Below, in pieces: positions 12,902-27,473 of a DNA stretch of 64,000 nt (positions within the stretch are counted from its first letter, which is position 1; every line of letters begins with the position of its first letter). The position numbers and the translations under genes were made by a program. A model generated the notes under the pieces. That model was given only the letters and a program-made list of their open reading frames with translations. It was not told the origin of the DNA and did not search any database. The stretch is from Verrucomicrobiaceae bacterium (GTDB taxonomy: Bacteria; Verrucomicrobiota; Verrucomicrobiia; Verrucomicrobiales; Verrucomicrobiaceae), in contig JAIXOU010000134.1 of NCBI GenBank assembly GCA_027486585.1, forward strand, positions 1 through 64,000, written 5' to 3'.

Positions 12902-13046
12902 GATTAGGGGGAGGAGTTAGTAGCGCAGGACTTGGAATTCGGCAAGAGGCCACACCAAATATGATCAGCGATGTTCGTCCTCCTTTCTCACCAAGGTGAA
13001 CCCTGAAAGACAAGGTCTTCTGCGCTCGTTTGCATGGCTCTCTCGA

Positions 13047-15890
13047 ATGCGATATATCCTCCATTTCATCTTTGTGATCCTGATCGCCCAGCGCTCGGTG
13101 GCAGCTTCATCGGATGTGGAGTTTTTTGAGAAACGTATCCGCCCTCTGTTGCTAGAGCATTGTCAGGAATGTCATGGCGAAGAGAAGCAGAAAGGCAGCC
13201 TCAGGCTGGATCATCAGATGGGCTGGCAAGTCGGTGGCGATTCCGGTCCAGCTCTTGTGCCAAGAAAGGTGGATGAAAGCCTGCTGTGGAAAGCGATCAG
13301 CTACACTGACCGCGATTTAAAAATGCCGCCCAAGAACAAGCTCAGCGCAGAGCAGGTGGCCGATCTGAAGCAGTGGATTGAATCTGGGGCGGTAGATCCT
13401 CGTTCTGCGCCAAGCACAAAAGGCAAGCTAGGCAGTCAGCCAAAGGTCGATGGTCGTTTTTGGTCCTTTCAATTGCCTGTGATCAAACCTGCTCCAGCCG
13501 TAAAAATGAGCGATTGGCCAGTACAGCAAATCGACCGCTACGTGTTAGCCAAGCTAGAGTCACAAGGCCTGAAGCCGGCCCCTGATGCAGAGGCAGCGAC
13601 TCTTGCACGCAGACTGGCCTTTGATCTAACAGGTCTGCCGCCGAGCGATGCCTCGTCATCGATAAAGGAGTCCCTGGAAAAACAAGTGGATCATCTTCTT
13701 GAATCACCAGCCTTTGCAGAGCGCTGGACTTCTCATTTGATGGACATGACTCGCTTTGCCGAGTCTTCAGGTGGTGGTCGATCCTTGCCCTTCAAGGATG
13801 CCTGGCGCTTTCGCGATTACCTATTGGAGTCGATCCGTGATGGCGTGCCTATGAATCGCATGATTCAGGAGATGATTGCTGGGGATCTATTGCCATACCA
13901 GAGCGCTGCTGAGCACCGCCGCCAACTTACAGCCACTGGTTTCCTCGCGCTAGGTCCAACCAATTATGAAGAGCAGGATAAAGGCATGTTACGCATGGAT
14001 ATCGTTGACGAGCAGTTGGATTCCATTGGTAAATCATTCCTCGGCATGACGATTGGTTGTGCCCGTTGTCACGACCATAAGTTTGATCCTATCCCAACTC
14101 GCGACTATTACGCCTTGGCTGGCATTTTACGCAGCACCAAAACGCTGAAAAATTACACAGACAATGTCGCTCACTGGATAGATAGACCTTTGCCATTTGA
14201 TGGTGCGCATGAAGTGGCGTTGCAGGAAATGGAGAAAAAGTCCAAGCAACTCGAATCTCGAATCGCCACCATAAAGGACGATCTGAGAGATGCGGGTGGA
14301 TTGAATCTGCGAAAGGCCAAAAATCTCAGTCCCCGCGATCTTCCTGGGATTGTTATGGATGATTCCGAGGCTCTGAAAGTGGGTGATTGGAAGTCATCAA
14401 GCCGTTTCCCACCTTTTATTGGTGGCGGTTATCTGCATGATGGCAATGAGGGCAGGGGAGAGAAGACACTTTCTTTCTCGCCAAAACTGCCAGTGGCAGG
14501 TCGATATGAAGTGCGCGTGGCTTACAGTGGTGCTCGGAATAGGGCGGAACGTGTGCAGGTTTCTGTGCTTCACGCCGACGGCGAAGACCTGGTCTATTTT
14601 AAGCAAGCGAACGAGGCTCGTGAAGGCTTGAGCTTTGCCACGATCGGTACGTGGCGCTTTGAGAACAGCGGGCAGAATTTTGTCATGATCTCTAATGCGG
14701 GCGCAGAGAGTTACGTGACAGTAGATGCTGTACAGTTTCTACCTGCGGATGCTGAGATGCCGGACATGCCGGCACAGACCGTGAGTCAGCAGGAAAAGGA
14801 CCTTAAATCAAAACTAAGCACTCTGGAAAAAGAGCTGAAGGCACTGCAAAAATCCGGTCCCTCACGTCCAGAGGCCATGGCTGTGGCTGACGACGAACTG
14901 CCTGAGGATGCACGGATTCACATCCGTGGCAGCACTCGTAACCTTGGTGCCGCGGTTCCACGTGGTTTTCTGCAAGTGGCTGTCAAAGGGCCTCTTCCAG
15001 CGATTCCAAAAAATCAAAGCGGTCGCTTGCAGTTGGCCCAATGGATCACCAGTCGAGACAATCCGCTGACGGCTCGTGTTTTCGTGAATCGTGTTTGGCA
15101 TTGGCTTTTTGGCGCAGGCATCGTCCGCACCACGGATAATTTTGGCAGCACAGGTGAACTACCTGCACACCCTGAGTTGTTAGATTATCTGGCTGTGAAG
15201 TTCATGGATGAAGGCTGGTCTTTGAAAAAGCTGGTTCGTGAAATGGTGCTTAGCAGGACCTATCGCCAGTCATCCGAGTTCACCGTGCAGGCTCAGAAGA
15301 TGGACCCTGATAATCGGCTGTTGTCTCATATGAATCGTAAGCGATTGGATGCTGAGTGTCTGCGAGATGCTATGCTCATGGCTGCCGGCACGCTGAATCC
15401 TACGTTTGGCGGCCTTAATGTCCCTGATGCCAAGGCTGTCGATGCGAACGATCAGAAAATTCAGAATCTCGAATACGGGTTCGCCTTTGCGGATACTCGG
15501 CGCAGTGTCTATACCGCCGCTTTCCGCAACGTGCGACATCCGTTGTTTGAGGTGTTTGACTTTGCTGACATCAATCAACCCATCGGCCAGCGCACGACCA
15601 GCACCGTGGCGACGCAGGCTCTTTATTTGATGAACAATCAAGAAGTGATCACTCAGGCTCGTGCCGCTGCTGATTTTGTGGTTCGCAGTAGAGCTGAGGA
15701 TGATGATCGCCTCAGCTTGGCCTATCAACGCTCACTGAGTCGTCTGCCGAGCCAGGAGGAACGGAAATTGACAGTTGATTATCTCCACCGTTCAGCCTCA
15801 GGCAATGACTCTGAGGCTGAGATTCGAGATACTTGGGCACGTCTGATTCAGACGTTGTGGGCCACGCCTGAGTTCCGTTTGGTGAAATAG
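13047..15890 (+). CDS. PSCyt1-DUF1549-DUF1553 heme protein with inserted carbohydrate-binding-like domain
   Basis: The 947-aa exported protein has a signal peptide (MRYILHFIFVILIAQRSVA), a planctomycete-type cytochrome c domain with CQECH (C39, C42, H43), then DUF1549 with a second CxxCH, IGCARCHDHKFDPI, and DUF1553 toward the C-terminus (QWITSRDNPLTARVFVNR). Between the two DUFs, roughly residues 430-565, a beta-sandwich-like segment (GRYEVRVAYSGARNRAERV, VTVDAVQFLP) resembles golvesin/xylanase-type carbohydrate-binding modules, followed by a short coiled coil. The ATG at 13047 is chosen over an upstream GTG because it begins the signal peptide. Usually a DUF1501 partner follows; here the next gene is a convergent sulfatase nine bases away. 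Redox partner and substrate unknown; polysaccharide degradation is inferred. Confidence 0.88.
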   Translation: MRYILHFIFVILIAQRSVAASSDVEFFEKRIRPLLLEHCQECHGEEKQKGSLRLDHQMGWQVGGDSGPALVPRKVDESLLWKAISYTDRDLKMPPKNKLSAEQVADLKQWIESGAVDPRSAPSTKGKLGSQPKVDGRFWSFQLPVIKPAPAVKMSDWPVQQIDRYVLAKLESQGLKPAPDAEAATLARRLAFDLTGLPPSDASSSIKESLEKQVDHLLESPAFAERWTSHLMDMTRFAESSGGGRSLPFKDAWRFRDYLLESIRDGVPMNRMIQEMIAGDLLPYQSAAEHRRQLTATGFLALGPTNYEEQDKGMLRMDIVDEQLDSIGKSFLGMTIGCARCHDHKFDPIPTRDYYALAGILRSTKTLKNYTDNVAHWIDRPLPFDGAHEVALQEMEKKSKQLESRIATIKDDLRDAGGLNLRKAKNLSPRDLPGIVMDDSEALKVGDWKSSSRFPPFIGGGYLHDGNEGRGEKTLSFSPKLPVAGRYEVRVAYSGARNRAERVQVSVLHADGEDLVYFKQANEAREGLSFATIGTWRFENSGQNFVMISNAGAESYVTVDAVQFLPADAEMPDMPAQTVSQQEKDLKSKLSTLEKELKALQKSGPSRPEAMAVADDELPEDARIHIRGSTRNLGAAVPRGFLQVAVKGPLPAIPKNQSGRLQLAQWITSRDNPLTARVFVNRVWHWLFGAGIVRTTDNFGSTGELPAHPELLDYLAVKFMDEGWSLKKLVREMVLSRTYRQSSEFTVQAQKMDPDNRLLSHMNRKRLDAECLRDAMLMAAGTLNPTFGGLNVPDAKAVDANDQKIQNLEYGFAFADTRRSVYTAAFRNVRHPLFEVFDFADINQPIGQRTTSTVATQALYLMNNQEVITQARAAADFVVRSRAEDDDRLSLAYQRSLSRLPSQEERKLTVDYLHRSASGNDSEAEIRDTWARLIQTLWATPEFRLVK

Positions 15891-15899
15891 AACCGAAGA

Positions 15900-17333
15900 T
15901 TATTTCTGGCCACTTTGACCAGCTTCACGCGTGCCTTTACCCTTGGGCATCTTCATCAAGGCGTCGCCCAATTCAGCGCGGATGCTATCGGCGTATTCTT
16001 GGATTTTGCTGACGATTTCAGGATGATCTGCAGCGACGTTCTTCGACTCACTGATGTCTGTGTAAAGATCATACAATTCAGGCGTTGTGACATTTTGCTT
16101 GGCATACTTGGCGGGACTGCCGCCTGTGGCTTTCGGTTGGTTTCCTAGGCTGCGATAGCTGTGTGGCAGTTGCAGCTTCCACTGACCATTCCCAGAGGTG
16201 ATTGCCTGAAGCTGATTCTGTTCGTAATAGGTCGCATAAAAGTCATGCGGATTTTGGGTTTCAGGACCACCGATGATCAGGGGCCAGACATTCTTGCCGT
16301 CGATGTCATGTTTGGGCAATTCAGCACCAATGGTGGCGGCAATGGTCGGCAGCATGTCGATGGTCATCATCATCGAGTCGCTGGTTGTGCCTACGGGTAT
16401 TTTCCCCGGCCAACGCATGAGGCCACAGACTCGAGTGCCGCCTTCCCAAGAGGTGCCCTTACCTTCGCGCAAAAGCCCGGCCGAGCCACTGTGGTCGCCA
16501 TAGCTTAACCAGGGGCCATTATCGGAACTGAAAATGATCCAGGTGTTTTTTGCGAGGCCGTTTTTATCCAGGGTGTCCAGAACTTGTCCTACAGACCAAT
16601 CCACCTCCATCATGACATCGCCAAAGATACCCTTGCCAGATTTACCTTTGAACTTCTGACTTACAAATAAAGGCACATGAACCATGCTATGGGCGAGATA
16701 CAGAAAGAAAGGTTTGTCTTTGCTGCGTTGGATAAAGCTGACAGCCTTGGCCGTGTAATCGGTGGTGAGATGCGTCTGATCTTCGGCGGTAACGTCGTCA
16801 TCAATCACTTGGTCATTTTCAATCATGGGCAATTTTGGGAAACCGCCCTTTTTCATCTCAGGATGATACGGCCACATGTCGTTGGAATAGGGGAGGCCGT
16901 AGTATTCATCAAAGCCGTGCTTGGTCGGCAGGAACTGTGGCAGATGTCCCAGATGCCATTTACCCACCGCAGCGGTAGCATAACCTTTTTGCTTAACGAC
17001 TTCGGCTAGCGTCATTTCATCATCGTGAATGCCCATTTTGGAGTTCGGTCCAAGTGCGCCATGAATGCCGACACGATTGGGATAACAACCTGTCAGCAGC
17101 GCAGTTCGTGAAGCTGAACAAACGGCCTGAGCAACATGGAAGTTGGTGAACTTACGGCCTTCCTTAGCCAACCGATCAATGTTTGGTGTCAGATTGCCTT
17201 GGGCCCCAAAACAGCCAACGTCAGCATACCCCATGTCATCCATGAAGATGACAACGATGTTAGGCTCGAGGTTCTCGGCTAAGAGGAAGCCACTCAGGCA
17301 AAGTAAGCAGAAAATAGGTCGAATGAAACGCAT
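15900..17333 (-). CDS. Secreted type I sulfatase
   Basis: The 477-aa enzyme hydrolyses sulfate esters. It has a signal peptide (IRPIFCLLCLSGFLLA), the metal-binding MDDMGYADVG (D32, D33), and the formylglycine motif CSASR at C72-R76, in which the Cys must be oxidised by a maturase. WIIFSSDNGP (about 270) supplies further metal ligands; AVGKWHLG carries the conserved Lys and His. Full length for an arylsulfatase A-type enzyme. Convergent to the DUF1549/1553 gene, the pair fits breakdown of sulfated polysaccharides. No formylglycine-generating enzyme is in the window. Confidence 0.94.
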   Translation of the reverse strand: MRFIRPIFCLLCLSGFLLAENLEPNIVVIFMDDMGYADVGCFGAQGNLTPNIDRLAKEGRKFTNFHVAQAVCSASRTALLTGCYPNRVGIHGALGPNSKMGIHDDEMTLAEVVKQKGYATAAVGKWHLGHLPQFLPTKHGFDEYYGLPYSNDMWPYHPEMKKGGFPKLPMIENDQVIDDDVTAEDQTHLTTDYTAKAVSFIQRSKDKPFFLYLAHSMVHVPLFVSQKFKGKSGKGIFGDVMMEVDWSVGQVLDTLDKNGLAKNTWIIFSSDNGPWLSYGDHSGSAGLLREGKGTSWEGGTRVCGLMRWPGKIPVGTTSDSMMMTIDMLPTIAATIGAELPKHDIDGKNVWPLIIGGPETQNPHDFYATYYEQNQLQAITSGNGQWKLQLPHSYRSLGNQPKATGGSPAKYAKQNVTTPELYDLYTDISESKNVAADHPEIVSKIQEYADSIRAELGDALMKMPKGKGTREAGQSGQK

Positions 17334-18511: not shown

Positions 18512-20052
18512 TTCGTGGCCTCTTCACCAAAGAACTGCGGCAACACGGCGGCCTTTTCTTCTTTGCCCTGATCCTCCTCGCTATCGGCATGGAGATGATG
18601 ATTCGCATGAATCTGCTGGTGCGCTCGGGCGGCAGTGCCTTTGCGCTGATGAACATGATGCTGTGGGTGCTCTTTCCTCTGGTCACGCTTATTCTGGCTA
18701 ATGCGCTCATCGCTGCCGAGTTCAGGCAGCGCACGCAGTTGTTTTTAGAGGCACTGCCTTTACCACGCTGGCTGATGCTGACAGTGAAGTATCTCCTCGG
18801 TCTCACCATGGCACTACTCAGTGTAGTGGTCCTGCTAGTGCTGTCCTGGATAGTGGGTGTGGAGACGGATGCGATAACGAGGCGCTTCGCGCTGTTGTTA
18901 ATCATTAAGGCCTCAGCTTGGGCTGCTTTTTGTTGGGCCGTCTGCTTCAGTATGGCTTTTCTGGGGCGTTATCGAGTCATCGCTTCTGTGACTTTGGTGG
19001 GTGGCCTTATTTCTGCCCAGCAATGGTTAGGCATGAAGGTGAACCGCTTTGGTCCCTTTGAACTCATCGGTGATCAGTTTGCCTATGAGCGCAGCACACT
19101 GCCGATAACGGAACTGCTCATCACGTTAGCTCTCATCGTTGTCGTAACGGCTTTTGGCTTCATGCTCGGTCTCGTGCGTGATGCCACGCTAGCCACCATG
19201 CTTTCAGAGAAAATGTCTGCTCGTGAGCGGGCCACATTTATCATCCTCACACTGGTCGCCCTCATGATGATCGGTCATGTCAAAGAGCAGCATGAGAATA
19301 CGGATCCATTGAGTCTGCCAGGCTCTATCGACATTGATAATGGTGTCGTTACCATCTCAGCCGCCGCAGCCGTGAATGAGCCGACAGACTTAGAGAAAGC
19401 GGCACTCAAAGCACATGCCAGTGCTGCTGACGCACTGCTGAAGGAGGTCGCTACCTATCTCCGGACGCCAAAGCTGCCGCCACTCTTCCTAGTGCATCGG
19501 CGTGACCTCGAAAAAGGTGAGATTGAGAATGGCGACCTCGACTCACGTCAAGGCACGTTGCTGCGTTTGAATTTGCTGATTACACCCACAGATGACCATA
19601 AATTGCAAACAGAGATCCTTTATCACCACTTGGGTGCTCATCAGCACTTTCGCAAGCATCTTAAAGATGCACGCTGGGTGCTGCGCGGTTTTTCCGCTTG
19701 GTGGCCGCAGCGGGGTCGCGCGCTTTCAGCGCCATCGGCAACTCTTGTCAGCTTAACTCCTACCGGCGATGATTTGCGGAAGTGGCTGACTTTTGAAGAA
19801 GGGCAGGATGAACGGGACGCCGCTGACTATGCCGCCTTTTGCATTCACACCCTGAGCCAAGCTGGACCGAATGCTCAGCAGCAGTTTTTGAGCAGTGCTC
19901 TCGGTTCAACCTATTCACACGATGGGCGTGGCAGCCTGCGTGACCTCTTTCAACCGCTGACTCAGCTGCTCAATGAAGCTACTAGCTGGACTCTCGATGA
20001 GCTAGCCAAGCGCGCTAATTGTCAACTCAAAGCTAAGGAGGTGCAGCCATGA
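18508..20052 (+). CDS. ABC-2 type permease with soluble C-terminal domain
   Basis: The 514-aa product has about seven membrane helices in residues 15-265 (for example FFALILLAIGMEMMI, LWVLFPLVTLILANALI, ATFIILTLVALMMIG) and the ABC-2 signature EFRQRTQLFLEALPLPR. Residues about 270-514 are soluble. In this tail ILYHHLGAHQHF followed by VLRGFSAWW lies where the partner permease has its HETGH and HEGVA motifs, so it may be a degenerate copy of that peptidase-like domain; this is inference. An odd number of helices would put the tail outside the membrane. Start ATG 18508 has a GGAGGT site and overlaps the ATPase stop. Confidence 0.8.
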   Translation: MIRGLFTKELRQHGGLFFFALILLAIGMEMMIRMNLLVRSGGSAFALMNMMLWVLFPLVTLILANALIAAEFRQRTQLFLEALPLPRWLMLTVKYLLGLTMALLSVVVLLVLSWIVGVETDAITRRFALLLIIKASAWAAFCWAVCFSMAFLGRYRVIASVTLVGGLISAQQWLGMKVNRFGPFELIGDQFAYERSTLPITELLITLALIVVVTAFGFMLGLVRDATLATMLSEKMSARERATFIILTLVALMMIGHVKEQHENTDPLSLPGSIDIDNGVVTISAAAAVNEPTDLEKAALKAHASAADALLKEVATYLRTPKLPPLFLVHRRDLEKGEIENGDLDSRQGTLLRLNLLITPTDDHKLQTEILYHHLGAHQHFRKHLKDARWVLRGFSAWWPQRGRALSAPSATLVSLTPTGDDLRKWLTFEEGQDERDAADYAAFCIHTLSQAGPNAQQQFLSSALGSTYSHDGRGSLRDLFQPLTQLLNEATSWTLDELAKRANCQLKAKEVQP

Positions 20053-21935
20053 ACCCCATACTGCTGATCAAAGAATTCTATAGCCTCAGGCTCACCTTCT
20101 TCATCTGCCTTGGGCTCACTATTTTTTATACAGGCTACATTTTCATAACAGACTTTCCTGACATGCAGACGGAGCCTGAAAATTCGGGAGCCATGGAGAC
20201 GGTCGTCCTCTATGGCATGCTTATCGGTGCGCGGGCACTGTCACAAGAGCGTGAAGAAGAAACGCAGAGCTTCCTTGATGGTCTGCCTATCAGCCGTAGC
20301 GCCATTTTTTGGCACAAAGCACTGGCTGCATGGCTTGTCTTTGCCTCGTGTCTGGTTGTTGAGTTCGTGGGCGAACTCATTCTGCAAATGCCTTCAAGGA
20401 CCTCTGTGAGTGAGGTCACACCGTGGTCTCTCTATCCCCTAGAATTCACACTGGCCATGCTCTTCGGCATCATGGTGATAGGTCTTTCTATGCTAGCCTC
20501 TTTTGTGCGAGGTCACTTCCCCTTGATTGCTGGATTGGTTATCTGGTCCTTCATTTGGCTGCGCTCACAAGGTGGCGACTTGGCAGCATGGTTAAACAGT
20601 CAGCTATTCTTCAAAGACGCCGCCGAAGTGACGATGAAGACACTGCTAGGTCACGGCGGCATCGCCATCATCGCCTTACTGCTGTCATGGTTATTCTTTC
20701 AGTGGCGAGATGGTCGCGTGAGCATCCAGCTGGCACATTTTGCAGACTCACGTTACTACAGCTGGCTTGGCTGGCCGCTGCGCTGCTGCGCTCTTGTAGT
20801 GTGGGTTTTTGCGCTCAAAGACGTGAGTAATGAAGACAAAAATAAATCTCACGATGCGCCAGAGATCATTGCAGCTGGTGAAAAGAAAGCTGCGACATCG
20901 AAGGCTAGCTTTGTTGGCTTTGCCAATCACCGCACGGACAACTATGAAGTGGTCTTTCGCCAGTCCCAGAGAGAAAAGATGCACCCGCTTTTCAGTGGCA
21001 TGGATCAGGTGCATGAGCAAGTGGCCACGTTTTTCCAGCACCCGCCTAGTCGAGATGCACCCATCGTACTCGACGTGGCAAGCATCGTCGCGCGCCACGC
21101 TGGCGGTCAGACGAACTGGAAGAAAATCCGCTTACCTTTGAATAAGGATGTGAGTCGAGACGAATTCTACAGCATCCTCCGACATGAGACGGGCCACGTC
21201 TTTATTGAAGAGCTAAGTCAGGGGGCGGCCACGGCATACTTTCAGCACATGCGTGCTTTTCATGAAGGTGTCGCCACAACAGTCCAGCTCTCAGATCTAG
21301 GCAAGTATAGTACCGAACAGAGGCTCAAGTATGAACGCACCGCAGCACTTGCAGATGAGCGTGGTAGAATCAGCATCGAGCTGTTGTGTGATAATGATGC
21401 CTTATGTGAAAAGCGTGACCCGAACGTTGTCTATCCGCTTGGTCTTATCTTTGCAGATGCCTTACTCGAAGTGGGCGGTCCTGAGTTACCTAAAAACGTG
21501 CTAACGAACCTGCGCCAAAACCCGCCAGCTCCTGGGGCCGATACGGCCACTCTTTGGCGTCATGTCTTACAGGCTAGCGGCACTTCGCTTGATCATATCC
21601 TGTCAGCTTATGCTACACGATTAAAGGCACTCAAAGAGCGTGAGAAGAGTTTCATTGGCAAGCATCCAATCATAAAATCCGACATGAGGGAGGAGGCCGT
21701 TCACCTCATCATTCGCCCGAAACGTCCAGATGAAACTCCAATCGACTCAAGGATCATCTGTGCCATCGAGAACGACCTCGGCCTCGCTACCGAGCTGCAA
21801 TACATCTTTCCTGAAAAAGACGGTAGCTTCCGCATCCCGCTCGCGGCCAAGCAGGGCGGTAAGCTGCGCTACATGATCGGCTGGTCCTCCCCGTTGCTCG
21901 CGCTTCCAGTCTTTGAGTCTTGGGCTGAATGGTGA
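20049..21935 (+). CDS. ABC-2 type permease fused to gluzincin-like metallopeptidase domain
   Basis: The 628-aa chain has about seven membrane helices in residues 10-270 (LTFFICLGLTIFYTGYIFIT, LEFTLAMLFGIMVIGLSML and others) and the ABC-2 motif EREEETQSFLDGLPISR. Residues about 290-628 form a soluble domain with LRHETGHVFIEE, giving H379-E380-x-x-H383, and AFHEGVA with E406 22 residues further on. HExxH plus a downstream Glu in an HEG-A context is the gluzincin zinc-protease pattern (M1-like). By helix count the domain lies outside the membrane. Starts with a GGAGGTG site and overlaps the previous stop (ATGA). Exported substrate or processed peptide unknown. Confidence 0.8.
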   Translation: MNPILLIKEFYSLRLTFFICLGLTIFYTGYIFITDFPDMQTEPENSGAMETVVLYGMLIGARALSQEREEETQSFLDGLPISRSAIFWHKALAAWLVFASCLVVEFVGELILQMPSRTSVSEVTPWSLYPLEFTLAMLFGIMVIGLSMLASFVRGHFPLIAGLVIWSFIWLRSQGGDLAAWLNSQLFFKDAAEVTMKTLLGHGGIAIIALLLSWLFFQWRDGRVSIQLAHFADSRYYSWLGWPLRCCALVVWVFALKDVSNEDKNKSHDAPEIIAAGEKKAATSKASFVGFANHRTDNYEVVFRQSQREKMHPLFSGMDQVHEQVATFFQHPPSRDAPIVLDVASIVARHAGGQTNWKKIRLPLNKDVSRDEFYSILRHETGHVFIEELSQGAATAYFQHMRAFHEGVATTVQLSDLGKYSTEQRLKYERTAALADERGRISIELLCDNDALCEKRDPNVVYPLGLIFADALLEVGGPELPKNVLTNLRQNPPAPGADTATLWRHVLQASGTSLDHILSAYATRLKALKEREKSFIGKHPIIKSDMREEAVHLIIRPKRPDETPIDSRIICAIENDLGLATELQYIFPEKDGSFRIPLAAKQGGKLRYMIGWSSPLLALPVFESWAEW

Positions 21936-24380: not shown

Positions 24381-26456
24381 TTAGAACGTCATTTTGATGC
24401 CAGCCACAAAACCACGGCCACCGAGGGGGGCGCGGTCTTTGAGGAATGAAGTGTGTTCTCGAGCTTCGGCATCCGTCAAATTGACGCCTTTTAGATAAAC
24501 ATCGGTGGTGATGGGGCCGCGACTGAGGGTGTAGGAGATGGCTGCATTGACGAGGAAATAGCTATCTGTTGGTAACTCCGCAGCGGAGATGCGATCTTGA
24601 GGCGCTGCATAGACTCCTTCTAAGCGAATGCCCAAGGGGCCACGCTGATAGGCTAGGGCTGTGCTCAAATGAAAAGGAGGAATGCGGGGAAGGGGGGCAC
24701 CGGTAATACGGTCTCGGGCACGCACGGCGTCAGCTTTGAACTCCAGGTCCAGATTGCTTTGATCGGCTGCTGCTGGCTTATCCGTGACAGGATGCAGCAG
24801 ATGGAATGTGGTCTCTAGCTCTGCGCCCAGGAATTCAGCTTCCGTCGAGCGAAACTCCATGACAGGGAAACCTGAGCCTGGATCAACGCCACCAGTTGGA
24901 AAGAGTCCGATGAAGTTGTTGAAGTGATTGTAGTAGCCACCCACGCTGCCGGTGACCCAGCCAGTGCGCTTACGCACGTTGAGATCAATGCCAAGAGACT
25001 TCTCAGTGGACAGACCTGAGTTTCCTAACTCATAAACGCCAGTGGCGATGTGTGCCCCATTGGCAAAGAGTTCCTGGTAATTTGGGGCACGCTCAGAATA
25101 CGTCGCAGTGAGTGCGATGGCGTAGTCATCGGTAGGATTGTAGATGGCTCCGAGAGATCCGCTGAAGTTGTCAAAGGCGCGTGATTCGCCTGGGCCGAAA
25201 TTGGGGTTATCCGAGTCCTGTGACTCGACCGAGATATGGTCGTAACGTCCGCCCATTTGTAAACTTAGTGCGCCGAATTTGCGTTCTTCAAAGATAAAAG
25301 CGCTGTTTGAGGCAGTGATCACGGTTGGCAGGAAGGCCTCTTCGCCATTCGCGGAGAAATGACTGCGGTCAGACTGGAAGCCAACTACACCTTCAAATCC
25401 GGCAATCTTTTCATGCTTCACTTCGATTCGGCCATCAAAGCCTTCGTTAGTAAAGACGGTGCCGACTTCCGCTCCCTCAAATTCCGTGTGCTCATAATCA
25501 GACCAAGCAAAGCGATAGTTGATTTCTTTGATCAGAGGCAGTGGGTCAAAGAAGGCTCCACGAACATCTAGTCGGAGTTGCTCCATATCAATCGTGATGC
25601 CCTCTTCAGCAGGCGACGCATAATTGGTGTGGTAGCCGGTGAGTGAGGCTCCGATGTAGCCTTTATCCCAGATGTAACTTAGACCTCCACTCATGCCTTC
25701 AGCGCGCAGATTGCTACTAGGTAGGCGGCCTTCAGACCCTGCTTCACCGGTTTGTTTGCGGTATTCATCGGAAAGGGAATTCCCCGGGATATCCAGATCT
25801 TCTGTCGCACGAGTAAACGTTTCAAAGTGGAAGGCGACAGGACCTTTGCCGCCTTCGACCATGAGATTGGCGCTGTAGCCATGATCAACCGAAGAATAGC
25901 TGCTGCCAAGACTGCCGCTGATTGTGTCCATGCGCTCTGTTGGGATTCGATTGTCCACCGCATTCACGACACCACCAATAGCGTTTGAACCATAGAGCAG
26001 CGTCGCTGGGCCACGCACGATTTCGATCGAAGTCAGATTCGAAACGTCAAAACTCACAGCGTGATCCACACTAGCACCCGAGGCGTCGATGGTATTGAGA
26101 CCATTCTGTAAGATGCGAATGCGATCTCCATCAAGGCCACGAATGATCGGGCGGCTAGAAACAGGTCCAAAATAACTACCACTGACGCCCGGTTGTCTTG
26201 AGAGCGTTTGTCCCAGTGTGGGTTCGAGAGATTGCTGAAGTTTCTTGCCCGTAAGCACAGAGACTGCTTGGGCCTGTTCGAACAAGGTGTGTCCAAGTGG
26301 TGCTGTAACAACGATCTCGTCCAAAACTTCCGATTTAGTCGGCGCAGGAGACTCACTGGCTTTTTTTAGAGTCGCCGTGGCCTCTTGTGCCATTAAGGGA
26401 TTCAGCAGGAAGCTTGAGAGTAAAATGGAGGCGAAGATTTTGGGTTTCATGGGCAT
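24381..26456 (-). CDS. TonB-dependent outer membrane receptor, probably for zinc
   Basis: The 691-aa product has a signal peptide, a TonB box-like segment (DEIVVTAP, about 46-53), a plug domain with LGQTLSRQPGVSG and RPIIRGLDGDRIRILQNG, and a 22-strand type barrel ending with GRGFVAGIKMTF, the final Phe typical of outer membrane proteins. Plug and barrel resemble the ZnuD group of metal receptors. It is divergent from a ZnuA-like gene with 108 bases between the starts, so the two should be co-regulated and take up zinc. A second ATG six bases inside (26450) is equally possible as start. Confidence 0.86.
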   Translation of the reverse strand: MPMKPKIFASILLSSFLLNPLMAQEATATLKKASESPAPTKSEVLDEIVVTAPLGHTLFEQAQAVSVLTGKKLQQSLEPTLGQTLSRQPGVSGSYFGPVSSRPIIRGLDGDRIRILQNGLNTIDASGASVDHAVSFDVSNLTSIEIVRGPATLLYGSNAIGGVVNAVDNRIPTERMDTISGSLGSSYSSVDHGYSANLMVEGGKGPVAFHFETFTRATEDLDIPGNSLSDEYRKQTGEAGSEGRLPSSNLRAEGMSGGLSYIWDKGYIGASLTGYHTNYASPAEEGITIDMEQLRLDVRGAFFDPLPLIKEINYRFAWSDYEHTEFEGAEVGTVFTNEGFDGRIEVKHEKIAGFEGVVGFQSDRSHFSANGEEAFLPTVITASNSAFIFEERKFGALSLQMGGRYDHISVESQDSDNPNFGPGESRAFDNFSGSLGAIYNPTDDYAIALTATYSERAPNYQELFANGAHIATGVYELGNSGLSTEKSLGIDLNVRKRTGWVTGSVGGYYNHFNNFIGLFPTGGVDPGSGFPVMEFRSTEAEFLGAELETTFHLLHPVTDKPAAADQSNLDLEFKADAVRARDRITGAPLPRIPPFHLSTALAYQRGPLGIRLEGVYAAPQDRISAAELPTDSYFLVNAAISYTLSRGPITTDVYLKGVNLTDAEAREHTSFLKDRAPLGGRGFVAGIKMTF

Positions 26457-26475
26457 GGCTCTTTAGTGCACTTTG

Positions 26476-26508
26476 ATTGCATTAGTAGTGAATGTGCAAT
26501 AATGCAAT
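26476..26508. promoter_or_regulatory. Candidate metal-repressor operator between TonB receptor and znuA
   Basis: The 108-base divergent intergenic region 26457-26564 contains the inverted repeat ATTGCATTA (26476-26484) and TAATGCAAT (26500-26508), and overlapping it TGCAATAATGCA, itself 10 of 12 symmetric. AT-rich dyads like this are typical of Fur/Zur-family repressor sites. Position between two divergent zinc-uptake genes supports a Zur-type site; no consensus for this phylum is known to me, so the assignment is inferred. Confidence 0.4.
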
Positions 26509-26564
26509 TGTTTTGCATGAAAAAATCAATCACCTGACGTATCTCTGAGTAACTTCCCTTTCCC

Positions 26565-27473
26565 ATGCCCCACCAAACTCTACGAACCTTCGCTTTCGCA
26601 GCCTGCTTAGCCCCGCTCAGCTTATGGTCGCAGCCTTTAAAAGTGGCGTCACTGCATCCACTGCTTGCTGATCTGGCAAGACAAGTCGGGGGCGATCAGG
26701 TTACGGTCATCGAGATCATGAAACCAGGCGGGGATATTCATCACTTTGAACCTGCGGCTAAAGATCTGGCGGCGATGCGCGGGGCTCGTCTTGTTCTCGC
26801 TTCGGGTAAGGAGCTGGAAAGCTATCTACCCAAGCTGCGTGATAGCCTTGGCACTGGTATTCAGATCATTGAAGTGGGGGAAAAGATCCCCTCCATCCCA
26901 TCGACCTGCAATCACGACCACGAAGGGGAATCAGCGGAGGAGCATCATCATGGAGCTGATCCACATTGGTGGCACAGTGCCGAGAACATGAAGCGAGCTG
27001 CACGCAGTCTAGCTGAAGCCTTTTCAGCAGCGTCTCCTGAAAACAAGGCCAGCTATGAAGCCGGAGCTAAGGCTGCATCCAAACGTTTCGGTGAGCTGAA
27101 GTCTTGGGCGCAAAAACAAATCGCCTCCATTCCAAGAGGTCAGCGTCAACTGGTGACGGCTCATGCTGCCTTTGGTTATTTCTGCAAAGAGTATGGTTTT
27201 GAGCCCCTGTCAGTCTTAGGGGTGGGTAGAGCGGATGATGTTTCGACCAAGCAAATCGCCCAGACCATCCAGACGATTCGTGAAAATAAGATCGCCGCCG
27301 TATTCCCTGAAGATCAGGCCAATCCTAAGGTGCTGGAGGAAATTGTCCGTAGCACCGGAGTGAAGATGGGAACAGCGCTGATCGCTGATGGCACGGCCAA
27401 GGAGGCGCATACCTTTGAAAGCATGTTTAGCAGCAATGTCCGCGCTATCGTGAGTGTGCTTGGGACGAAGTAA
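26565..27473 (+). CDS. znuA: Zinc ABC transporter substrate-binding protein
   Basis: A 302-aa cluster 9 solute-binding protein with signal peptide (TFAFAACLAPLSLWS). Metal ligands fit the family: GGDIHHFEP (His about 66), the His/acid-rich loop CNHDHEGE...EEHHHG (about 111-131), HWWH after it, LVTAHAAFGYF and a C-terminal Asp. The His-rich loop is characteristic of zinc-binding ZnuA rather than Mn-binding members. No ATPase or permease gene follows (the next gene is convergent two bases away), so ZnuB and ZnuC must be encoded elsewhere. Confidence 0.88.
   Translation: MPHQTLRTFAFAACLAPLSLWSQPLKVASLHPLLADLARQVGGDQVTVIEIMKPGGDIHHFEPAAKDLAAMRGARLVLASGKELESYLPKLRDSLGTGIQIIEVGEKIPSIPSTCNHDHEGESAEEHHHGADPHWWHSAENMKRAARSLAEAFSAASPENKASYEAGAKAASKRFGELKSWAQKQIASIPRGQRQLVTAHAAFGYFCKEYGFEPLSVLGVGRADDVSTKQIAQTIQTIRENKIAAVFPEDQANPKVLEEIVRSTGVKMGTALIADGTAKEAHTFESMFSSNVRAIVSVLGTK

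Follow-up and report, generated by a model that had tools for sequence, protein, structure and literature searches.

A two-chain ABC-2 transporter unit of Verrucomicrobiaceae with a predicted gluzincin-like zinc peptidase on one permease and a degenerate copy on the other

Does an ATP-binding cassette (ABC) permease encoded by a Verrucomicrobiaceae bacterium carry a peptidase of its own, and what would a transporter do with it? The question arises from a 64,000-nucleotide stretch (hereafter the window; positions 1 to 64,000 of contig JAIXOU010000134.1, assembly GCA_027486585.1), in which an earlier note, made from the letters alone, had described the fusion of an ABC permease with a metallopeptidase domain of gluzincin-like type. 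We find that this protein, here called P2, is the last product of a three-gene operon that also encodes an ABC ATPase, the nucleotide-binding domain (NBD) subunit, and a second permease, P1 (Table 1). The C-terminal domain of P2 has an invariant zinc-site signature and a predicted fold resembling that of M1 aminopeptidases, and P1 carries a homologous domain from which the HExxH motif is absent. The earlier note had the limits, strand and 628-aa length of the P2 frame exactly, and the motifs H379-E380-T-G-H383 and HEGVA (with E406) are present as it stated. It was also correct that two permeases are paired, while overlooking the degenerate peptidase copy fused to P1.

The operon is compact. 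ATGA overlaps join the NBD stop to the P1 start and the P1 stop to the P2 start, an AAGGAGG lies ahead of P2, and a convergent gene is found ~10 bp beyond the P2 end. Gene order is kept in 29 of 32 related loci (counting L030, in which the contig start truncates the NBD), and the remaining three (L054, L055 and L057) start within the unit. The NBD contains a Walker A motif (residues 49–56), an LSGG signature (143), a Walker B motif with its Glu (163–168) and an H-switch. Its best NCBIfam match is PmtA, at 178 bits, below the model cut-off of 350 bits.

Table 1. Features of the NBD-P1-P2 unit, in window coordinates
Feature	Coordinates	Strand	Basis
ABC ATPase (NBD), 306 aa	17591..18511	+	Pfam PF00005 E 1e-29; sequence motifs
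P1, ABC-2 permease with degenerate C-terminal peptidase-like domain, 514 aa	18508..20052	+	ATG 18508; predicted structure
P1 C-terminal homologue of the P2 peptidase domain, lacking HExxH	19291..20049	+	hhalign
P1 HHLGAH, counterpart of P2 HExxH	19624..19641	+	
P2, ABC-2 permease with gluzincin-like metallopeptidase domain (predicted), 628 aa, ATG start	20049..21935	+	
P2 membrane part (residues 1-262): NosY-like core of six helices and a seventh helix	20049..20834	+	VIA, predicted model
P2 peptidase domain (predicted), residues 290-628	20916..21932	+	VIA match to IRAP
P2 H350-A-G-G353-Q-T-N-W357, where M1 has the GAMEN strand; no conserved Glu	21096..21119	+	
P2 HETGH, residues 379-383, putative zinc ligands and catalytic Glu	21183..21197	+	invariant; aligned to M1 HExxH
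P2 E406, putative third zinc ligand, in HEGVA 405-409	21264..21266	+	invariant 33/33; aligned to M1 NEG
P2 Y462 of YPLG, at the position of the Tyr in M1 Y-x-x-G	21432..21434	+	invariant 33/33
P2 C-terminal beta-rich part, residues 541-628	21669..21932	+	strands in predicted model

The peptidase-like domains of P2 and P1

An alignment of 33 rows was analyzed, comprising the window P2 and proteins from 32 loci of Verrucomicrobiota, Planctomycetota and one Acidobacteriota record; the rows of L046 (frame broken near the end) and of L054, L055 and L057 (contig ends) are incomplete. The residues H379, E380, H383 and E406, whose conservation the earlier note had named as a check, are invariant in all rows, as are D342, L377, F398, R402, H405, G407, A409, Y462, G465, G477 and W503, and the spacing between HExxH and Glu is a constant 22 residues throughout. 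The 32 loci came from a pattern-led contig scan that used the HExxH and Glu motifs themselves, so these counts carry a selection bias. A motif-independent whole-protein search recovered P2 from 13 of the 142 genomes searched (that of the window among them), a set overlapping with the 32 loci, and all 13 proteins contain both HExxH and FHEG. Between the window and genome G038, the P2 domain differs by a nonsynonymous rate (dN) of 0.028 and a synonymous rate (dS) of 0.124.

An HExxH alone is weak evidence, because 3.3% of composition-preserving shuffles of P2 contain one somewhere. This frequency, together with the lack of a Pfam peptidase match in the window P2, would suit a chance motif in an unrelated domain. 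Chance is nevertheless contradicted by the predicted fold, the conservation in 33 of 33 rows and the register with M1 in profile alignment; we reject it and give it next to no credence. The motif stands beyond chance because it is conserved in every row at a constant distance from the Glu.

The predicted fold, which had been set beforehand as a test of the gluzincin assignment, is M1-like. An AlphaFold2 model built on the 33-row alignment has a mean predicted local distance difference test score (pLDDT) of 83.3, and of ~93 in residues 371–390 and 401–410, which hold the HExxH and Glu blocks. Foldseek searches of the Protein Data Bank (PDB) placed M1 aminopeptidases at the top (IRAP, 5mj6, E 1.2e-4, then ERAP1; LTA4H at E of at least 0.03) and also returned NosY (E 7e-3). 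In VIA comparisons, residues 290–584 match IRAP with a Z of 15.9 (3.6 Å over 239 aa), with similar Z for ERAP2, LTA4H and others, while residues 1–221 match NosY, the best structural match for the membrane part, with a Z of 18.8 (3.1 Å over 216 aa). VIA Z values below ~13 say little for helical models, and those of P2 lie above this level. Of the features that define gluzincins (clan MA(E)), P2 has both the HExxH with a downstream Glu as putative third ligand and, in the AlphaFold model and by VIA, a zincin-type catalytic fold.

M1 peptidases combine HExxH-x18-E with a GAMEN strand whose Glu holds the free N-terminus of the substrate, and the Tyr of their Y-x-x-G motif is catalytic. When the P2 domain profile was aligned with 27 M1-type proteins (those in loci L058–L109 with HExxH-x18-E), a match with a probability of 95.8 (E 7.4e-9, 210 columns) was obtained, in which the HExxH, the Glu behind it and the Tyr of Y462-x-x-G465 fall on their M1 counterparts. 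The Y-x-x-G feature of M1 is present, with Y462 and G465 invariant, while the x18 spacing is replaced by x22 in 33 of 33 rows. The GAMEN Glu is missing as well: the profile alignment puts its position at H350 and a distance count near T355 of GQTNW, a conserved Glu stands at neither, and among the 33 rows an isolated Glu occurs in the equivalent stretch only in L032 and L040. PF01433 (Peptidase_M1) has no match in the window P2 and, at E up to 1, matches 2 of 13 members (best E 0.13). On sequence grounds the P2 domain is not M1, because of its x22 spacing and the absent GAMEN Glu. Since that Glu would not be there to anchor a free N-terminus, P2 is less likely to act as a classical aminopeptidase than as an endopeptidase or broad peptidase.

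Invariance of the site also bears on whether it would be catalytic at all. The domain might instead be a non-catalytic zinc- or metal-binding receptor or chaperone with a NosDFY-like role in metalloenzyme maturation, as the NosY match of the membrane part could suggest, along with a member of the transporter family TC 3.A.1.145 that is annotated as a multi-copper enzyme maturation protein in PMC3924187. However, the invariance extends beyond the putative zinc ligands to E380 and Y462, which a pure metal site would not need; we consider this reading very unlikely.

P1 proved to be a relative of P2 along its whole architecture. The membrane parts are homologous (hhalign probability 99.2), and so are the C-terminal domains (probability 91.5, E 8.8e-7, 308 columns), while a control alignment of the P2 domain with the P1 membrane part gave a probability of 0.2. 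None of 31 P1 proteins (the window's and 30 others) has an HExxH at the aligned place, and most have W-x-x-(D, C or other)-G in place of the Glu motif, with W390 invariant. As a candidate for a surviving HExxH, the HEWAH at residue 481 of the planctomycete L050 P1 (5998–7878) was rejected, since it lies outside the aligned place. Against an M1 profile the P1 domain gives a weak match (probability 56, E 1.1e-4). The P1 model has a mean pLDDT of 78.6 and a fold that matches NosY, PmtCD and a mycobacterial pump; its gluzincin likeness in Foldseek is weak (aureolysin, E 0.11), and the VIA matches listed fall on the membrane part. Assignment of the window P1 as an ABC-2 permease rests on fold, because its sequence scores below cut-off for ABC2_membrane_4 and ABC2_membrane_5, which at E up to 1 are found in 11 of 12 and 8 of 12 members, respectively.

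P1 length varies among loci. Proteins of 621–637 aa, about 100 residues longer than the window's 514, occur in L040, L043, L044, L050, L051, L052, L053, L054 and L056, and in those long P1 that were aligned the extra length is a C-terminal extension. Synonymous divergence between the window and G038 (L014) is also uneven along the unit: 0.047 for the P1 membrane part and 0.005 for its domain, 0.08 and 0.12 for the corresponding parts of P2, and 0.21 for the NBD. The unusual closeness of P1 (18508–20052) beside the more diverged P2 and NBD possibly reflects local recombination.

In the simplest history, a single permease-peptidase fusion would have been duplicated, and P1 would then have lost its zinc site ahead of the divergence of the members found. 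The presence of the dead domain in all P1 proteins seen suggests that it may have been kept by selection.

Membrane topology and a proposed mechanism

The AlphaFold helices of P2 span residues 14–34, 46–69, 83–113, 128–174 (read as two), 196–219 and 235–269, which agrees with the seven helices first predicted; the ABC-2 motif reported with them corresponds to a Pfam match to PF12679 (E 5.4e-7, 29.6 bits against a cut-off of 27.2). Mean lysine plus arginine (K+R) counts, taken over 31–33 rows per loop with loop limits set by hand from the model, are 3.1, 3.1, 1.5 and 3.7 for inside loops and 0.6, 1.2, 1.2 and 0.8 for outside loops of P2. The values for P1 are 2.9, 3.6, 2.0 and 3.6 inside and 0.5, 1.3, 2.6 and 1.1 outside. 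Because of the odd helix count and the K+R-rich inside loops, the soluble domain of P2 most likely lies in the periplasm, in keeping with the placement outside the membrane suggested originally. From the same two lines of evidence, we infer that both C-terminal domains are outside the cytoplasm.

The Pfam ABC2_membrane match of P2, the six-helix cores and the partner NBD are the features of ABC-2 (type V) systems. We favor, with moderate confidence, the reading that the three proteins are subunits of a single type-V transporter (ABC-2, NosY/PmtCD-like), in which the periplasmic domain of P2 cuts an exported or extracted peptide and the dead domain of P1 is retained. Two NBD subunits would sit beneath a P1-P2 heterodimer, and both C-terminal domains would lie on the periplasmic side, at the transporter's mouth. 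ATP hydrolysis would export or extract a membrane-associated peptide or lipopeptide, and the putative zinc site of P2 would cleave it on emergence. The dead domain of P1 may provide the other wall of a chamber as well as a binding or gating lobe, replacing the missing M1 saddle domain.

Several observations weigh against this picture. The predicted template modeling score (pTM) of the P2 model is 0.56, which leaves the placement of the domain relative to the membrane part unsure. The window P2 matches no Pfam peptidase model: across 13 members (the window's included) searched at E up to 1, SprT-like matches occur in 6 (best 7.7e-5) and Peptidase_MA_2 matches in 5 (best 3.1e-5), a signal that is present in the family and too weak in the window protein. 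PDB sequence searches yielded chance-level matches only, and the match between the P2 domain and the M1 portion of four one-chain fusions considered below is poor (probability 34, E 4.3e-4, 120 columns). For the P1 domain, the comparison of the window with G038 (dN 0.0053, dS 0.0055) is uninformative on selection. No cargo gene was found beside the unit in the 32–33 loci, and the cargo trimming envisaged by the earlier note is a possible role only.

A bolder form of the proposal is that the live and dead gluzincin domains, derived by duplication, form a proteolytic chamber over the ABC-2 exit, making the unit an ATP-powered periplasmic degrader of membrane peptides. We hold this only tentatively, as a doubtful extension. 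If true, ATP-driven extraction and destruction of membrane peptides would be one step, beyond what an exporter with a trimming enzyme does.

Distribution and genomic neighborhood

The NBD-P1-P2 unit is rare. The window's genome has a single copy, and the closest named relative is a Verrucomicrobiaceae metagenome-assembled genome whose P2 is 95% identical. A search with P1 as bait found 12 of the 142 genomes, all within the 13 that are positive for P2; in the thirteenth (G127) the contig begins inside P2. An even draw from the phylum contained the unit in at least 1 of 387 genomes, the window's own, and in a planctomycete class at least 1 of 198 genomes, the centre genome itself, has a true member; these are lower bounds, with no more than 3 and 7 candidates scored per genome, respectively, in the matches listed. 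A wider family reached through a weak planctomycete match in G611 was rejected, as that protein (530 aa) has no HExxH and is an ordinary tandem ABC-2 permease. The P2 tree is deep and largely follows phyla. L030 (Pirellula sp. Prado165) is an exception, its P2 falling inside Verrucomicrobiaceae, through either lateral transfer or a misbinned contig. A search for viral or plasmid carriers, made with the window P2 as sole query, found none.

This patchy presence is among the points that would suit a defence pump, which would pull foreign amphipathic peptides (antimicrobial peptides or bacteriocins) from the inner membrane and destroy them in the periplasm. PmtA as the best NCBIfam match of the NBD and PmtCD among the closest solved permeases point the same way, but the PmtA score is far under its cut-off, no conserved regulator or resistance gene lies beside the unit, and P1 and P2 have no PADLOC match. 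We judge such a pump unlikely. A phage-defence system was rejected as well: the NBD alone of the three proteins has PADLOC matches (10, best mad3, E 1.9e-25), which we read as general ATPase likeness.

The unit appears to stand by itself in its surroundings. Among open reading frames (ORFs) of at least 110 aa, no cluster besides the unit is common to more than 7 of the 32 loci, and the small ORFs (25–120 aa) lying up to 700 bases from the unit form no cluster that recurs in over 5 of 33 loci (6 loci have no upstream sequence or too little of it). Cluster c2, on the minus strand where listed and often in multiple copies, is near the unit in L034, L036, L037, L039, L042, L047 and L055, and in these seven loci it sits downstream of P2. 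Of 20 adjacent co-directional genes, 5 have no Pfam match and 15 have matches of many kinds: esterase (three) and single cases of HAD, PSCyt2/PSD1, MscS, GNAT, EamA, methyltransferase, DUF4349, BD-FAE, SDR, ECF sigma, MgtE and amidohydrolase.

That the unit stands alone, with no recognizable cargo gene, would also fit mechanotransmission, as in MacB/FtsEX-like systems. In that case no substrate would be transported, and ATP hydrolysis would open and close a periplasmic peptidase acting on envelope proteins or lipoproteins; the two homologous external domains could form a gated clamp. However, besides NosY the membrane parts also match PmtCD and ABCG transporters, and no MacB or FtsX chain is among the best 50 matches listed. 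Mechanotransmission is possible, though on balance doubtful, and transport coupled to cleavage by P2 remains the reading we prefer.

Other genes of the window were noted on either side of the unit. At 12996–17333, a PSCyt1/PSCyt2/PSD1 (DUF1549/DUF1553) protein adjoins a sulfatase, a pairing familiar in Planctomycetota and Verrucomicrobiota. At 24381–27473, ~2.4–5.5 kb downstream of the unit, a TonB-type receptor ORF (minus strand) and a divergent ZnuA/TroA-like metal-binding protein with a His-rich loop (plus strand) were labelled by eye from their translations.

Comparison with known systems

The earlier note had mentioned longer fusions of permeases to M1-like peptidases, and these do exist as a named family: in PMC3924187 (2013), TC 3.A.1.145 is an ABC-2 exporter fused to Peptidase M1, represented by Myxococcus xanthus Q1D520 (1200 aa, 13 transmembrane segments), and its substrate and function are given there as a guess only. 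The note's further remark, that the compact paired form is less described, stands to this extent: no description of a split two-chain form with a pseudopeptidase was found in the open-licence literature. The kind of fusion is known, but its split, paired form seems little described.

Four one-chain ABC-2/M1 fusions (1170–1201 aa, 11–13 hydrophobic peaks) were found in G494 and G496, genomes that also hold the NBD-P1-P2 unit. Pfam, run on two of the four, places Peptidase_M1 over cut-off in both and ABC-2 over cut-off in one, and an ABC ATPase (PF00005) lies immediately upstream in three of the four, the fourth beginning at a contig edge. The membrane part of P2 aligns somewhat better with the second ABC-2 half of the fusions (probability 91.0, E 1.1e-6, 89 columns) than with the first (probability 73.6, E 2.9e-5, 231 columns), whereas that of P1 reaches a probability of about 5 with either half; profile alignment detected no P1-like domain in either half of the four. 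Among near relatives, 17 of the 32 loci were covered and no ABC-2/M1 fusion was seen in these; long open frames, such as one of 1289 aa in G034, also occur. Like TC 3.A.1.145, P2 has an ABC-2 permease with a C-terminal putative zinc peptidase. That family carries both ABC-2 halves and one M1 domain on a single chain of ~1200 aa, whereas the window unit consists of two chains (514 and 628 aa), its peptidase domain is compact, and P1 bears a degenerate twin. P2 is probably kin to TC 3.A.1.145 and, judging from its predicted architecture, may work like it.

With the M1 peptidases IRAP, ERAP1 and LTA4H, P2 shares the predicted catalytic fold, HExxH, the third-ligand Glu and Y-x-x-G. It differs in that its model has no N-terminal saddle domain, in its spacing (x22, not x18) and in the absence of a conserved GAMEN Glu. 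Its six-helix ABC-2 core resembles NosY of NosDFY; NosY forms a homodimer and is not known to carry a peptidase domain, whereas P1 and P2 would form a heterodimer of fused permeases. The phenol-soluble modulin exporter PmtABCD shares the PmtCD fold and, through PmtA, gives the best NCBIfam match of the NBD, although the NBD score is under the PmtA cut-off; PmtABCD is not known to contain peptidase domains.

Among exporters that bring a protease with them, the best known are the peptidase-containing ABC transporters (PCATs), whose C39 domain is a cysteine protease located in the cytosol. The NBD-P1-P2 unit is like them in combining an exporter with its own putative protease, and unlike them in having a zinc site, predicted to lie outside, in P2. 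A putative zinc peptidase on the outer side of an ABC-2 channel, with a dead twin beside it, would couple transport to cleavage on the far side of the membrane from the cytoplasm. Being small and naturally pairing a presumably active copy with an inactive one, the unit is tractable for structural work and assays, and P1 supplies an internal means of asking what the pseudopeptidase is for.

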